Source: Kofleriaceae bacterium
GTDB taxonomy: Bacteria; Myxococcota_A; Polyangia; Haliangiales; Haliangiaceae
DNA: 55,309 nt
Reading direction: 5' to 3'
Assembly: GCA_022842285.1 (NCBI GenBank)
Contig: JALHPV010000008.1
Location: 5,803-61,111 of the forward strand
The position numbers were made by a program, and so were the translations under genes. The notes below the pieces were generated by a model. The model had not been told where the DNA came from. It did not search any database and saw only the letters and a program-made list of their open reading frames with translations. Shown piece after piece: positions 39,571 through 48,991 of the stretch; positions within the stretch are counted from its first letter, which is position 1; every line of letters begins with the position of its first letter.

Positions 39571-41271
39571 ATGAAGCTGCGCCTGATGCTCTTCGCGGTC
39601 GCCCTGGCAGGGTGTTCCGGGGAACTCGATGCCTCCTCGGACTATGGGGGCGACTCCAGCGACGACGCGAGCGATGGGATCGCCGCCCCCGACGCGCAGG
39701 GGCTGTGCTTCACGTCGAGCGAATGCCCGACCGGGTACATCTGCAACGACTTCAATCGCTGCGAGTACGTGACCAGTCCCATCGGCGAGGACGGTGGCAT
39801 CCCGCCGCCGCCCGAGGTGGAGATCGAGATGAGCCAGCCGGTCAGCTCGGAGCGCTTCGTGTACGTCGCGATGACCGAGCAGGACGAGCTCGCGCGCATC
39901 GACGGCCAGACCGGCGCGGTGCGCTCGACGAGCGTCGGCGATGCCCCGAAGGTCGCCCAGGCCATTCCGCACAGCGATGGCGCGCTGGTCCTCGACTCGG
40001 TCAACGGGACGGCCACCATCGTCCGCCCCAACGGCGAGGACGACGTCGTCAAGGTCCTCCCGACGCTCCGCAACCTGAACCGCCTCGACATCGATCCGTC
40101 GGGCCGTTACGCGGTCGTCTGGTTCGATCTCACCAAGGCCATCGCCGACGGTGGCATCGACGGGATCGGGAGCTTCCAGGACGTGACCATCATCGCGCTC
40201 GCTCCGGGCGTCGAGCGAGCCGTCAACCTGACCGTCGGCTTCCGGCCGCGCAGCATCGCCTTCGACTCGCTCGGCACGCGTGGCTACGTCATCACCGAGG
40301 ACGGCGTGTCGGTCATCGACCTCGGCGTCGCGATCACGCAGGGGCCAACGATCGTGCCGCCGATTCCCGTGGCGGCGGCGGGGACACCCGCAAACGCGCT
40401 CGAGGTCGGCATCGTCTCGACGGGGGCGTACGCCGTCGTCCGCCAGACCGGCCTCAACGCGATTCGCCTCGTCAGCCTCGCGGGCGCCGAGCGCGGCCAG
40501 ACCTGGGAGCTACCGCTCAGCTCGCCGGCCACCGACCTCGACTTCGCTCCCAACGGCGGCCGCGTGTACGTGATCGAGCGCGAGGCGCAGCAGATGTCGA
40601 TCCTCGACGTGCCCGCCGACTTCCTGAACCCGGCCGGCGTCCAGACGCTCGATCTCACCGGCGCCGCGCTCGGCTCGATGCAGCTCTCCGCCGACGGCAC
40701 GCGCGCGCTCATGTTCACCAACGCGACGCTCGACGAGCGCATCACGCTCCTGCGGCTCGACCAGGCGACCGCCACCGCGACGACGTGGCCGCTGAAGAAG
40801 GCCGTCCGCGCCGTCGGCATCTCGCCCACGGGCACCACGGCCATCGTCATCCACGCGAAGGCGCCCGGCGATCCGGACCAGGCGATCAACGTCGATGACT
40901 TCATCGACAAGAGCTACGGCTACTCGATGCTCGACCTCGCGACGGGGTTCGCGAAGCTCGAGATCACGCCCGTCGATCCCGGCGCCCACGTCTACGCTCC
41001 CAACGGCCACAAGGCGTACATCGCCCTCGACGGCGGCGACCTCCCGACCGACATCCGCGCGCTCCAGATCGTCGACACGCGCACCGGTGTTGTCATCGTG
41101 AAGCAGCTCGGCTCGCCGCCGGAGATGGCCGGCATCCTGCCCGGCGCGGGCACGGGCGAGGCCTTCGTGCTCCAGCGTCATCCGCTGGGCCGCGTGACGT
41201 TCGTGAATCTCATGACGGACGCCTTCCGCACCGTCACCGGTTTCGACCTCAACGGGGACATCGTGAACTGA
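39571..41271 (+). CDS. Beta-propeller-like lipoprotein, operon gene 1
   Basis: 566 residues. Lipobox ALAG-C15, an Asp/Ser-rich linker, and a small cysteine knot (LCFTSSECPTGYICNDF) of a kind often seen in Myxococcota surface proteins. From about 95 to 566 the sequence cycles through strand units such as VYVAMTEQDELARIDGQTG, GALVLDSVNGTATIV and RVYVIEREAQQMSILDV, as in YVTN/WD40-like propellers. It likely acts as a ligand-binding or assembly scaffold at the outer membrane. Its stop overlaps the next gene's start (TGATG). Confidence 0.82.
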   Translation: MKLRLMLFAVALAGCSGELDASSDYGGDSSDDASDGIAAPDAQGLCFTSSECPTGYICNDFNRCEYVTSPIGEDGGIPPPPEVEIEMSQPVSSERFVYVAMTEQDELARIDGQTGAVRSTSVGDAPKVAQAIPHSDGALVLDSVNGTATIVRPNGEDDVVKVLPTLRNLNRLDIDPSGRYAVVWFDLTKAIADGGIDGIGSFQDVTIIALAPGVERAVNLTVGFRPRSIAFDSLGTRGYVITEDGVSVIDLGVAITQGPTIVPPIPVAAAGTPANALEVGIVSTGAYAVVRQTGLNAIRLVSLAGAERGQTWELPLSSPATDLDFAPNGGRVYVIEREAQQMSILDVPADFLNPAGVQTLDLTGAALGSMQLSADGTRALMFTNATLDERITLLRLDQATATATTWPLKKAVRAVGISPTGTTAIVIHAKAPGDPDQAINVDDFIDKSYGYSMLDLATGFAKLEITPVDPGAHVYAPNGHKAYIALDGGDLPTDIRALQIVDTRTGVVIVKQLGSPPEMAGILPGAGTGEAFVLQRHPLGRVTFVNLMTDAFRTVTGFDLNGDIVN

Positions 41272-42860
41272 TGAAGAAGCTGATCCTTCCTCTGCTGGCC
41301 ATTTCCCTGGCCGCGTGCACCTGGGACGACGACCGTCCGATCGGCTGGGAGCGCGACCGCACCGTCCTCGGCCCCATCCCGCTGAAGACGCAGGTCGCCT
41401 ACGTCGACTCCGCCCTCGATCGCGTCACGCTGCTCGACCTCGCCGCCGACGTGCCCGTGCTGTCGACGCGTGACATCGGCCGTCGCGCCATCACCGCCAC
41501 CCCGAGCGCCGACAAGCACTACCTCTTCGTCATCACGCGCGGCGAAGAAGCGATCGTCGAGGGACAGATCGATGAGGACCCGCAGTTCTGGTCCGTCGAC
41601 ACCCAGTCCGCTGACGCCGCCCCCGTCGCCTACGCGATCGGCTCGCCCTTCGATCGCATCGCGATCTCGCCCGACAACAGCATCGCCATCGCCTACTTCT
41701 CGGCCGCGGGACCGGACTCCACCGGCTTCTTCCGCAACCCGAACGAGCTCGCGATCATCGACCTCACCAAGCCCCCGGGCGCCGACAACCCGACCCTCAA
41801 GACCATCCGCTCGTTCGGCTCCGTGCCCGAGGGCATCGTGCTCTCGCCGCCCATGTCCGTGCCGGGCAGCGCGGATGCCGCCGCGCGCACCTTCGCGTTC
41901 GTCCTGTCCCAGAACAACCTGACCGTCCTCGACGCCACCCACGCCACGCGCCGCGAGATCTCGATCCGCCTCGATCTCGCCGCGGCCGCGGTGATGCCGA
42001 AGGAGATCGTCTTCGCTCCGCACACCGCCAGCGCCTACGTCCGCAGTGACAACGCCCGCGACGTGCTCCAGGTCCTCCTGATCGGCGCCGACGCCTCCGC
42101 CGAAGGCAACGGCAACGACTACCGCCCGCAGCTCGCCGAGCTCGGTGCCGGCGGAGGCCCGACCGACATCGCCGTCTACGACGACGCGCGCGGCCGTCGC
42201 ACCATCCTCGCCGCCACGCCGAACACCGGCGAGATCGTCGTCATCGACGCCGACACCGCCCAGTTCCGCGCCATCCGCGTCTCCGACCCCATCGACCGCA
42301 TCCTCCTCTTCAGCGCGCCCGGCGAGCCCCCGCACAAGGCGCTCTTCGCCTCCATCTCGTCGAAGATGAGCCGCGTCCACGTCCTCGACCTCCAGGACAT
42401 CGACAACCCACTCACGCAGGCGCGCCTCCGCCGCATCGACCTCGACCAGTCCGTCCGCGACGTCGTCCCCGTCCCCGGCCGCGACTTCGCCATGCTCGTC
42501 CACGATGACAACCGCACCGTCATCGGCCTCCTCGACATGGAGACCGAGTCCACCTCGCCCCTCCTCGGCGTGGGCCGCCTCGACTCCTACGACTTCTCCC
42601 CCGACGGCTCCTTCCTGATCGGCGCGACCCCCAACGTCGCCCGCGTGGGCTTCGTCGCCCTCGACAACCTCCACCCGACCGACTTCCGCCTCGACGACAT
42701 GCCCGCCCGCGTCATCTCCACCGCCAACGCCAAGATCTTCGTCGACCACGGCGACCCCCTCGGCCACGCCACGATCATTCCGTCCCCGACCTCCGAGCGC
42801 GCCGACGCCATCGTCCTCGCGGGCTTCCTCACCTCCAACCTCCTCGATGCGGAGCCCTAA
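41271..42860 (+). CDS. Beta-propeller-like lipoprotein, operon gene 2
   Basis: 529 residues. Lipobox SLAA-C16 followed by TWDDDRP. The body has propeller-type strand repeats (QVAYVDSALDRVTLLDLA, DKHYLFVITRGEEAIV, AFVLSQNNLTVLDATH, RRTILAATPNTGEIVVID), without the cysteine motif of gene 1. The two lipoproteins share fold type and probably ancestry but are quite diverged. ATG fused to the previous stop. It is followed by the beta-barrel gene after one base, so all three are one transcription unit. Confidence 0.82.
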   Translation: MKKLILPLLAISLAACTWDDDRPIGWERDRTVLGPIPLKTQVAYVDSALDRVTLLDLAADVPVLSTRDIGRRAITATPSADKHYLFVITRGEEAIVEGQIDEDPQFWSVDTQSADAAPVAYAIGSPFDRIAISPDNSIAIAYFSAAGPDSTGFFRNPNELAIIDLTKPPGADNPTLKTIRSFGSVPEGIVLSPPMSVPGSADAAARTFAFVLSQNNLTVLDATHATRREISIRLDLAAAAVMPKEIVFAPHTASAYVRSDNARDVLQVLLIGADASAEGNGNDYRPQLAELGAGGGPTDIAVYDDARGRRTILAATPNTGEIVVIDADTAQFRAIRVSDPIDRILLFSAPGEPPHKALFASISSKMSRVHVLDLQDIDNPLTQARLRRIDLDQSVRDVVPVPGRDFAMLVHDDNRTVIGLLDMETESTSPLLGVGRLDSYDFSPDGSFLIGATPNVARVGFVALDNLHPTDFRLDDMPARVISTANAKIFVDHGDPLGHATIIPSPTSERADAIVLAGFLTSNLLDAEP

Positions 42861-42861
42861 C

Positions 42862-43506
42862 ATGCGCCTCGCTCCTCTCCTCCTCCTCTGCGCCGCGGCC
42901 TCCCCCGCGCTCGCCGACACCAACGAAGTGTCGATCGGCTTCGCCGGCCGCTCGCTCCGCTCCGACAGCGCCAACGCCGTCTCCGACGACAACCTCGCCG
43001 GCGGCGAGCTCACCTACGCGCGCGGCCTCCCCGTCGAGCTCCCCGGTGACATCGGCATCCAGCTCATCGGCGGCTTCAACTGGAACAGCGTCTCCGGGAC
43101 GATGTTCAACACCATGCAGACGGAGGTCGACTCGACCGGCCTCTCCGTCGGCCTCCGCGCCCGCTACGCGCTCCTGTCCCGCGTCGTCCTGAACGCCCGC
43201 GTCGACCTCGGCATGAACCGCACCTCCCTCGACCTCGAGATGGGCGGTCGCAACCTCTCCGACGCCCGCTGGCACGCCATGACCCGCGGCTCCCTCGGTC
43301 TCGACGTCTACGCCGTACAATCATCGCGGGTGTCGATCGGGGCGCGCCTCGAGGCCGGCTATGTCCTCGCCTCCGACGTCAACCTCGCCCCGCGCGAGGA
43401 CGCCGGCGACGGCACCACCATCATGCTCCCCGAGACCCAGGCGTCCATCGGCAGCCTCGATCTCGGTGGTCGCTACGTCTCGGTCTCGTTCGTCCTCGGC
43501 TTCTAG
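42862..43506 (+). CDS. Outer-membrane beta-barrel-like protein, operon gene 3
   Basis: 214 residues from the ATG at 42862. Signal peptide ends ASPALA. The rest alternates hydrophobic and polar residues in 9-11 residue strands (GGELTYARGL, IQLIGGFNWN, GLSVGLRARYAL, VSIGARLEAGYVL) and ends with the aromatic SVSFVLGF typical of outer-membrane barrels recognised by BamA. Probably an 8-strand barrel. It is the natural membrane partner of the two propeller lipoproteins encoded just upstream. Confidence 0.8.
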   Translation: MRLAPLLLLCAAASPALADTNEVSIGFAGRSLRSDSANAVSDDNLAGGELTYARGLPVELPGDIGIQLIGGFNWNSVSGTMFNTMQTEVDSTGLSVGLRARYALLSRVVLNARVDLGMNRTSLDLEMGGRNLSDARWHAMTRGSLGLDVYAVQSSRVSIGARLEAGYVLASDVNLAPREDAGDGTTIMLPETQASIGSLDLGGRYVSVSFVLGF

Positions 43507-43705: not shown

Positions 43706-44383
43706 ATGAAACTCGTCTATGCGACGTCCCTGCTTGCACTCACCGCTTCGACGGCATGCGTGATCGCCCCAGAGGGCGTAGAAGCGGCGGGTGAAGGAGA
43801 GTCCGGCGAAGAGGTGTCAGGCCAGGTATTCGTCTCTAGCACTGGCCAGGAAGCACCGGCGAATCCTGATGAACCCACGTCGCCGGCGACGGTCACCGAT
43901 GGCGCTCTCCTCCTTCGGGGGGCCATCGAGGGCTGCACGTTCAACCACCTTTGGCTCAAGGATGCGACGGGAGATCTGAACTCGGGGCCCATGCTCACGC
44001 CTGAGTGGCCCGCCGTCGTCTCCGCGGTGGGGAACGAACTCATCTTGGCCGAAGAGACCCTGGCCATGTTCTCGGGCGGGGGCATTCGCGGCAAGATCGT
44101 GCTTCGCCTCGAATCGATCGACTCCCAAACTGGTGACTGGACCGTGGCCGCTCGGATCGACAACGCCGCGTGGGGTGGTTTCTACGGAAGCGGAGTTGCC
44201 GACGTCAGCCTCGGGGCTGTCAGGATCAATCCACAAAGCCCGGTCGTGGTCGAAGATGCGACCATCCAAGACCCTGTCGCCCCGGCTGAGCTCACGTTCG
44301 TGAGCGCCGACGGGTCGAGCGTTTCATACACGGCCAAGTGGGGGCTGGTCCAAAGCGTCGGGGTTGCCTGCGGCGAATTCTGA
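43706..44383 (+). CDS. Lipoprotein of unknown function
   Basis: 225 residues. A good ribosome binding site (tgagg) lies 7 bases before the ATG. Lipobox ASTA-C18, then an acidic Gly/Glu linker (EGVEAAGEGESGEE). The mature part is beta-rich with two Cys (IEGCTF and VACGEF), which could form a disulphide joining the ends. Codon bias looks somewhat weaker than in the operon before it. No family recognised. Confidence 0.75.
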   Translation: MKLVYATSLLALTASTACVIAPEGVEAAGEGESGEEVSGQVFVSSTGQEAPANPDEPTSPATVTDGALLLRGAIEGCTFNHLWLKDATGDLNSGPMLTPEWPAVVSAVGNELILAEETLAMFSGGGIRGKIVLRLESIDSQTGDWTVAARIDNAAWGGFYGSGVADVSLGAVRINPQSPVVVEDATIQDPVAPAELTFVSADGSSVSYTAKWGLVQSVGVACGEF

Positions 44384-47192: not shown

Positions 47193-48158
47193 CTACTGCT
47201 TACCGACGACGACGGGCGCACAGGTCGAGACGCCCGCGCCCACGATCCGCTTGCCCGCGGCCGCCGTGTACGAATCGACCGCGCCGGTGGAGCCGTTGAT
47301 CTGGTAGACGGTCGTGTTCGCCTCGCCGTTCTTCATGAGGAACACCCAGTAGTCGCCGCCCCAGTACGCGAATGCCCACGCCGCCGGCGTGCCCTGCAGC
47401 ATGCCGCCTGGCATGTACGTGGTTTCGAGCGCGCCCGTGCCCTTGTTCACCTTACCGACGCGCGGGTTGCTGCCGGGGAAGAAGCCCCAGAGCTCCGCGT
47501 TCGAGTTGCCCGTGAGCTCGGGCGACCCGGGCACGGTACCGGCCGAGGTGACCTGCATCGTGTTGACGTCGAGGACGGCGAGTGAGGACGGATCGTCTGG
47601 ATTGATGTCGGCGCCGCCACCCGTGATGAACAGCTTGTCGGACGTGCCGCCGGCCTGGTCCGTCGAGAAGCCCATGCCGAACAGCTCGAGCCCGAGCTGT
47701 GGCTGATAGTTCAGGTTCTGGCAGGTCAGCGGCGTGACCGTCGTGTCGACTTTGAAGATCTTGCTGTTGCTGAACAGGATGTACGCGTTCGAGTCGCGAT
47801 CGACGGCCATCGAGAACGGCGTCGCCTCGCCACCGAGCGGGTTGTTCGGGTCGATGCCGGGGTTGCAGTCGAGCGTGCCGATCGTCGAGAACTGCTTCGT
47901 GGCCGGCGCGAACGTCGACAGCGTGTTGTTCGTGTCGACCGTGTAGACGAGCTTGGCTTCATCGGAGCAGCCATCGGCGGCGTCCGGGAACATGTCGCCG
48001 TCGCTCGAGTCCGCATCGCTGTCACTGTCGGCGTCGGAGTCAGAGTCCGCATCGCTGTCGGAATCTCCGCCATCACCATCGTTGCGGTTCTCGGGACCAC
48101 AACCAGCACCAAACGACGACAACGAAAGGAACGCTGCAACCAAGGTGGCAGTTCTCAT
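47193..48158 (-). CDS. Lipoprotein with Ser-Asp repeat linker and beta-propeller-like body
   Basis: 321 residues. Lipobox FGAG-C20 followed by a stretch of (D-S-D-S-D-A) repeats at about 33-52, resembling the SD spacers of Gram-positive adhesins. The body has strand units such as KLVYTVDTNNTLSTFAPA and KIFKVDTTVTPLTC, with several Gly/Pro turns and four Cys, consistent with a propeller. Calcium binding by the acidic linker and surface display are likely guesses. Function unknown. Confidence 0.82.
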   Translation of the reverse strand: MRTATLVAAFLSLSSFGAGCGPENRNDGDGGDSDSDADSDSDADSDSDADSSDGDMFPDAADGCSDEAKLVYTVDTNNTLSTFAPATKQFSTIGTLDCNPGIDPNNPLGGEATPFSMAVDRDSNAYILFSNSKIFKVDTTVTPLTCQNLNYQPQLGLELFGMGFSTDQAGGTSDKLFITGGGADINPDDPSSLAVLDVNTMQVTSAGTVPGSPELTGNSNAELWGFFPGSNPRVGKVNKGTGALETTYMPGGMLQGTPAAWAFAYWGGDYWVFLMKNGEANTTVYQINGSTGAVDSYTAAAGKRIVGAGVSTCAPVVVGKQ

Positions 48159-48193
48159 CGGCCGGGAACCTACACGGCCCCCCGGGGGGCGAT

Positions 48194-48991
48194 CTACGAA
48201 AATGTGCTGAACCCGAAAGACCGGCGGACAGCCCGCATCGCCTCGGAGACCTGTCCGTCGGCTTCGCGGACGACAAACGGCGCCGCGACGGTGCCAGGTT
48301 CCGTCACGGCGGCCCGGGGTCGGCAGGCGAAGAGCGTGAACAGCGGGGCCAGGCTCATGCGCGGGATCACATCCTGACGCTCTACCAGCGCGAGATCTGC
48401 GGCCTCGATGGCGGCGAGGGCGCGGGCCAGCTGAGGCGTCGGGAAACAGAAGGCGAACAGCCCATCCGGGGCAAGGTGCCGAGTCGCAGCGAGGCAATAA
48501 TCACGGACGTCGCCGCGGAGCTCGAAGCGGGCGTGCGCTTTTTGTGCATCGTCGGGCAGCACTCCCGTACCGAGGGGGAAGTAGGGCGGGCTGCCCGTGA
48601 CGAGCGGAAAGCGCTCGTCGAGGGCGAGGTCGCGCAGGTCGCCGAGCCGAGGCTCGACGCGGGCCCCGAGGTCGTTGAGGGCGATGTTCGCGAGGAGGAG
48701 CCGATGTGAAATCTCCTGCGCCTCGACACAGGCCAAGGTCGCGCCGGCGGGCAGGCCCCACAGCACGAGCAGGCCGACGGTCCCGATGCCGGTTCCGAGA
48801 TCGAGAGCGCGTGGCGCCGTCGGGCAATGCCGGAGCGCGTAGGCCGCCGTGAGCACGTCGTCGACCGAGTGTCGGTGACCGCCGGCACGCTGGAGGATGT
48901 GCCACTGGCCCGTGAGGCCGTCGAGCGTGACCTCCTCCCCGAGCGCAGCTGCGAGGTCCCGCTGTAAGATCTCGGCATGGGAAGGAACCAC
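48194..48991 (-). CDS. TrmN6-like methyltransferase, second copy
   Basis: 265 residues. Class I methyltransferase with SAM motif ALDLGTGIGTVGLL (about 62-75) and catalytic VTGSPPYFPLGTG (about 128). It keeps S/G-PPY instead of NPPY, like the copy at 19542-20351, and both share the H-x-x-S-V/L-DD-V/L segment (HRHSVDDVLTAAY against HRWSLDDLVTAYV) and the R-F-E-x-R-G stretch. The two are paralogues; RNA or possibly protein substrates. Its 5' end overlaps the divergent lipoprotein gene by up to 15 bases, so an internal start is possible. Confidence 0.8.
   Translation of the reverse strand: MVPSHAEILQRDLAAALGEEVTLDGLTGQWHILQRAGGHRHSVDDVLTAAYALRHCPTAPRALDLGTGIGTVGLLVLWGLPAGATLACVEAQEISHRLLLANIALNDLGARVEPRLGDLRDLALDERFPLVTGSPPYFPLGTGVLPDDAQKAHARFELRGDVRDYCLAATRHLAPDGLFAFCFPTPQLARALAAIEAADLALVERQDVIPRMSLAPLFTLFACRPRAAVTEPGTVAAPFVVREADGQVSEAMRAVRRSFGFSTFS

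Follow-up and report, generated by a model that had tools for sequence, protein, structure and literature searches.

A phylum-wide three-gene module of Myxococcota encoding two paralogous propeller lipoproteins and a predicted eight-stranded outer-membrane barrel

BamA is an outer-membrane barrel with a periplasmic domain, and its partner BamB is a propeller lipoprotein. In Myxococcus, outer-membrane exchange depends on TraA and TraB, a surface adhesin and its small barrel partner, the latter carrying an OmpA-type domain. Among propellers of the YVTN/lactonase type, the known members found among our matches are mostly seven-bladed. Sortilin is given as the only known ten-bladed propeller in a 2013 survey (PMC3797127), and the title of a study cited there describes it as a receptor with ligands bound in its tunnel. 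Here, we analyzed a locus in a 55,309-nucleotide stretch of DNA (the window) from a Kofleriaceae bacterium, in which three consecutive genes combine proteins of these kinds:

Gene A: 39571..41271, + strand, 566-aa lipoprotein with a propeller of, apparently, about ten blades
Gene B: 41271..42860, + strand, 529-aa lipoprotein, paralogue of A, modelled as a ten-bladed propeller
Gene C: 42862..43506, + strand, 214-aa outer-membrane protein, predicted eight-stranded beta-barrel

The original prediction had described a trio with overlapping or one-base junctions; the genes lie head to tail, and both the coordinates and the junctions proved to be exact. The stop codon TGA of A (41269-41271) and the ATG of B (41271) overlap by one base (TGATG), and a one-base gap lies between the end of the TAA of B (42860) and the ATG of C (42862); if C were started at an alternative position, 42847, it would overlap with B. 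A consensus scan revealed neither a promoter nor a terminator, using a consensus that may not suit the host organism. The source genome (7.9 Mb, 550 contigs) contains one copy of A. Two further putative lipoproteins are encoded outside the trio. One of them, of 225 aa, lies 200 bases downstream of C (43706-44383, + strand), and it yielded no significant match in Pfam and no relative in 23 fetched neighbourhoods. The other (47193-48497, - strand) shows a long Asp-Ser-Asp-Ala repeat tether followed, as judged by eye, by a possible propeller.

We examined whether the three genes stay together across genomes. Among 56 related genomes, including the source, A was present in 26 and B in the identical 26, while a single-sequence search for C retrieved it in 16, and the fast-evolving barrel could be made out immediately downstream in the majority of the others. 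Genus g5 of the same family was sampled with seven genomes, none of which has A or B, so some lineages can do without the module. Across the phylum, A-type proteins were detected at an E value of 1e-10 or better in 130 of the 282 Myxococcota genomes drawn, and in 92 of 192 when good-quality genomes were considered. A scan of GTDB species contigs, with two short C-terminal patterns as the query, gave at least 55 loci among the 80 pattern matches listed. The titles of these listed matches named Myxococcota or its subgroups, 'Deltaproteobacteria', 'Proteobacteria', unspecified bacteria, or Oligoflexia, and the Oligoflexia-labelled genome is the same as one in the phylum search.

With A as the bait, 119 loci were collected and merged into 94 non-redundant groups, a design in which lone B or C genes would escape notice. 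In 79 of the 94 groups, a single strand carries A, another propeller gene (B, or one closer to A) and a barrel gene side by side. Twelve of the remaining 15 run into the end of their contig no more than 301 bases downstream. L134 and L157 are truncated on the upstream side, L157 being without partners downstream, and L146 carries A alone with 6 kb of sequence to either side. The gene order is A-B-C in most groups and B-C-A in at least six, from several families (L125, L132 and L150-L153); other groups have two or three copies of A. The orders B-A-C and A-C-B, printed for three groups, are due to long overlapping reading frames. At L065 (G048:C386), two tandem A copies with the same search scores stand ahead of B and C, which suggests a recent duplication in that genome. 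These data indicated that the trio is conserved phylum-wide, both as proteins and as neighbours, far beyond chance, contrary to the outcome that would have refuted the original prediction.

Gene A starts with a signal peptide and a lipobox (LAGC, lipobox Cys15), followed by an acidic, Gly/Ser/Pro-rich tether of about 80 residues that contains four Cys (46, 52, 58 and 64). The propeller region occupies residues about 90-566 and ends with the family motif QxHxxGRxTF...TGFxLN. In Pfam, A matched Gmad1 just over the cut-off, and the A family profile searched against PDB sequences identified the archaeal surface-layer protein 1l0q (7.9e-13) as well as lactonase-type propellers; PF10282 (lactonase-type) was matched by 5 of the 22 A members. 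The NCBIfam matches were to generic propeller models, and a few A members also gave weak matches to unrelated enzymes; the profile searches showed a family resemblance to hydrazine synthase beta and to PQQ-type models as well. Judged by its sequence, A is a propeller. When the A profile was compared with itself, it showed repeats spaced by about 50 residues, or by multiples of that length, between positions of about 87 and 548; together with co-linearity with the modelled B, these repeats make the A propeller appear to have about ten blades.

Alignment of the A and B profiles by hhalign gave an E value of 3.4e-24 over 426 columns, with residues 94-561 of A co-linear with residues 40-522 of B, and near their ends both proteins have His, Gly and Thr residues in this order, ahead of a Gly-Phe. 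At this level of profile similarity, A and B are paralogues that derive from one ancestor. A simple lipobox pattern fits every row except one in each family (21 of 22 for A, 22 of 23 for B), and both exceptions have a Cys nearby. Thus, the two diverged propeller-like lipoproteins of the original prediction were borne out, with lipoboxes in both and with the propeller supported by sequence in A and by paralogy and a structure model in B. The two families differ in their tethers: from anchor to propeller, the median was 75 residues (range 57-82, 21 of 22 rows) in A versus 16 (range 12-23, 22 of 23 rows) in B, counts that are slightly too long for about three rows of A and one of B, in which an upstream Cys was taken. 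A-family tethers are rich in Gly, Ser, Pro and Ala and mostly acidic, and the four-Cys segment is found in the rows closest to the window. With a long tether on A and a short one on B, B would be pinned to the membrane and A would be able to reach out. We also considered a haem reading of the propellers, which was dropped because the haem motif CxxCH is absent from every A and B row.

Gene B likewise begins with a signal peptide and a lipobox (LAAC, lipobox Cys16), and its tether is 17 residues long. The window protein had no match in Pfam, where 1 of 23 members gave one weak LVIVD match; the B profile had no match at 0.1 against PDB sequences, and NCBIfam returned three weak matches, each in one member. 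The structure model of B (pLDDT 89.9, pTM 0.87) contains 40 strands that fall, in order, into ten sets of four. Reading the blade number from this strand list, we predict that B is one propeller of ten blades with a closed ring. When the model was compared with solved structures, 340-368 residues were aligned to eIF2A/eIF3b at an rmsd of 4.3-5.0 Å, apart from one of the five rows at 9.4 Å, 302-331 residues to NirS/NirN/cd1 at 5.0-6.5 Å, and 255-267 residues to YncE at 6.4 Å. These references have nine, eight and seven blades, respectively. The alignment grows from the seven- to the nine-bladed references, as would be expected if the B ring had more than eight blades. The best Foldseek matches of B were large WD-repeat proteins with an rmsd near 15 Å and a TM score (query) of about 0.3, indicating no close whole-fold match; sortilin was not among the Foldseek matches listed for B, which excludes nothing. 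Of the two faces of the B propeller, the one with the s2-s3 and s4-s1 loops has the better conserved loops (0.510 versus 0.453, Mann-Whitney p 0.0025), a modest bias, as the top 50 conserved positions include 14 in the loops of one face and 10 in those of the other.

Gene C encodes an ordinary signal peptide (about residues 1-19) and ends with Phe, and an aromatic C-terminus (F, W or Y) was found in 18 of 18 C rows. Its model (pLDDT 86.8, pTM 0.80) has eight strands and holds, outside the barrel, only the signal peptide and loops. A second look at structural matches identified OmpA (Z 17.9, rmsd 2.8, 162 aligned), NspA (Z 17.7, rmsd 2.6, 153 aligned) and OmpW (Z 16.8, rmsd 2.8, 171 aligned). 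On this model, C is predicted to be an eight-stranded barrel of the OmpA/NspA type, and the small beta-barrel proposed originally is upheld by the strand count, the model confidence and the OmpA/NspA matches. Sequence searches gave less: C scored 23.6 bits against Pfam PF13505 (OMP_b-brl), under the gathering cut-off of 28.7, and 6 of 18 C members matched OMP_b-brl at an E value of 0.01 or better, while the C profile had no match at 0.1 among PDB sequences and NCBIfam gave no match. C is the fastest-evolving of the trio in 16 of the 16 loci with all three proteins aligned, with a mean identity across loci of 32%, compared with 52% for A and 58% for B. In the 14 closest rows, loops L1 and L2, extracellular by the usual topology, had conservation values of 0.53 and 0.64 versus 0.35 for the first periplasmic turn, a contrast that is weaker with all 18 rows, where the other two turns are at 0.44 each and L1 is at 0.44. 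The higher conservation of L1 and L2 relative to the first periplasmic turn fits docking of a partner at the surface side.

We then inspected the flanking genes, which were named by eye. A Ser/Thr-kinase-like family, probably comprising many paralogues, recurred in 16 of the 94 groups, an Lgt-like gene (prolipoprotein diacylglyceryl transferase) in 9, a RecJ-like gene in 7, and an EAL-domain-like gene in 7, mostly from the window's own genus. The Lgt-like loci are L097/L141, L100, L113, L138-L140, L147, L148 and L157, some of which have the RecJ-like gene beside them. A fourth partner gene did not emerge, as no flanking family is generally shared across the 94 groups. By gene neighbourhood, therefore, the module is self-contained, in line with the original claim, and the families that flank it in several loci are only local or generic. 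Searches of PADLOC and PHROGs, which cover anti-phage and phage families, returned 0 matches for A, B and C at 0.01.

The operon layout, the secretion and lipidation signals, the A-B paralogy, the conservation of the set and the tether asymmetry are observed features of this module. We infer that its three proteins may be physically in a complex, exposed at the surface and ligand-binding. Our preferred reading, to which we assign a probability of roughly 0.45, is an outward-facing outer-membrane complex in which C and B would make up the base and A would bind ligands as a tethered head. The eight-stranded barrel of C would serve as the membrane base; B, on a tether of about 16 residues, would be held tightly to the membrane beside C; and A, on about 75 flexible, mostly acidic residues, would be the reaching head. 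The propellers might bind a ligand, possibly a polymer or peptide, in their wide central channel or at their conserved loop face, in a manner likened to the ten-bladed tunnel of sortilin. Eight-stranded barrels of the OmpA/OmpX type are of a size that gives no wide pore. A more specific form of this proposal, which we regard as doubtful, is a Myxococcota-wide receptor in which paired paralogous ten-bladed propellers would be displayed on the surface by a dedicated barrel and the A head would capture a polymer or peptide via its wide channel. Were it true, these propellers would be among the first of ten-bladed size known in bacteria.

On balance, we place the propellers on the cell surface, and this preference draws on the conservation of the three genes as a set, on the unequal tethers, on the better conserved of B's loop faces, and on the conservation of L1 and L2 of C relative to the first turn. 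Against surface placement stands the rapid evolution of C, since possibly C alone is exposed and the propellers are periplasmic. The main rival builds on that arrangement: A and B would face the periplasm like BamB, as a scaffold or assembly device that helps with the insertion, retention or stabilisation of C or of other envelope components, and the long tether of A would span the periplasm. The barrel is far less conserved than the propellers, as one expects when exposed proteins are compared with buried ones, and a propeller lipoprotein with a barrel resembles BamA/BamB; moreover, the Lgt-like gene, lgt encoding the lipoprotein lipidation enzyme, lies nearby in one lineage (9/94 groups, by eye). 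However, C has eight strands and is without a periplasmic domain, unlike BamA, and the patchy presence (130/282 genomes) argues against a general assembly role; we consider this rival rather unlikely.

The faster divergence of C relative to A and B would also fit three separate envelope proteins that are co-transcribed under shared regulation and form no physical complex, but the set stays intact over many families despite the B-C-A order and the duplication of A, a retention that exceeds what shared regulation usually keeps and that makes this explanation improbable. We judge it quite improbable that A and/or B are extracytoplasmic enzymes, of the lactonase or another propeller type, with C as their outer-membrane anchor. 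The likeness of the A family to lactonase-type (PF10282, 5/22), hydrazine synthase beta and PQQ-type models points that way, as do polar residues invariant in the aligned rows, which include Q203 and H537 in A and H493 in B; yet the resemblance is generic within the superfamily, CxxCH is absent, and the loci share no common metabolic neighbour.

The surface complex that we favour was compared with described systems. No description of the three-gene module was found in the open-access literature or the curated families searched, in agreement with the initial view that no system of such make-up had been described. As far as sequence and these sources allow, the parts are of known kinds, and the combination, the paired, apparently ten-bladed lipoproteins and the phylum-wide module would be new to them. 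A trio kept over many families of one phylum, yet absent from the papers and curated families searched, represents unstudied envelope biology in bacteria noted for their predatory and social habits. If the ten-blade models are right, A and B would also constitute a second, unrelated lineage for a propeller size with one known example in the 2013 survey (PMC3797127). B, on its ten-blade model, would resemble sortilin/VPS10 in blade number, with no sequence relation seen. An Asp-box-like pattern, searched as a regular expression, had a single match in 2 of 22 A rows and in 0 of 23 B rows, and this near absence points to a different propeller class and indicates that any likeness to sortilin would be one of size, not of descent. 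YVTN/lactonase-type propellers (1l0q, YncE and 6-phosphogluconolactonase-like proteins) belong to the same sequence family as A, and to that of B only via A, whereas A and B are apparently ten-bladed, lipid-anchored, paired and linked to a barrel. C shares its fold with the small barrels OmpA, NspA, OmpX and Ail (Pfam OMP_b-brl), but full OmpA has a peptidoglycan-binding domain that C is without, and C is encoded with two lipoproteins. The BAM complex likewise joins an outer-membrane barrel to a propeller lipoprotein, BamA and BamB, while C is a bare eight-stranded barrel without POTRA domains and is encoded adjacent to two propellers. TraA/TraB resembles the trio in pairing an adhesin with a small barrel; in contrast, C does not extend beyond its barrel and lacks an OmpA-type domain, and its partners A and B are propellers.
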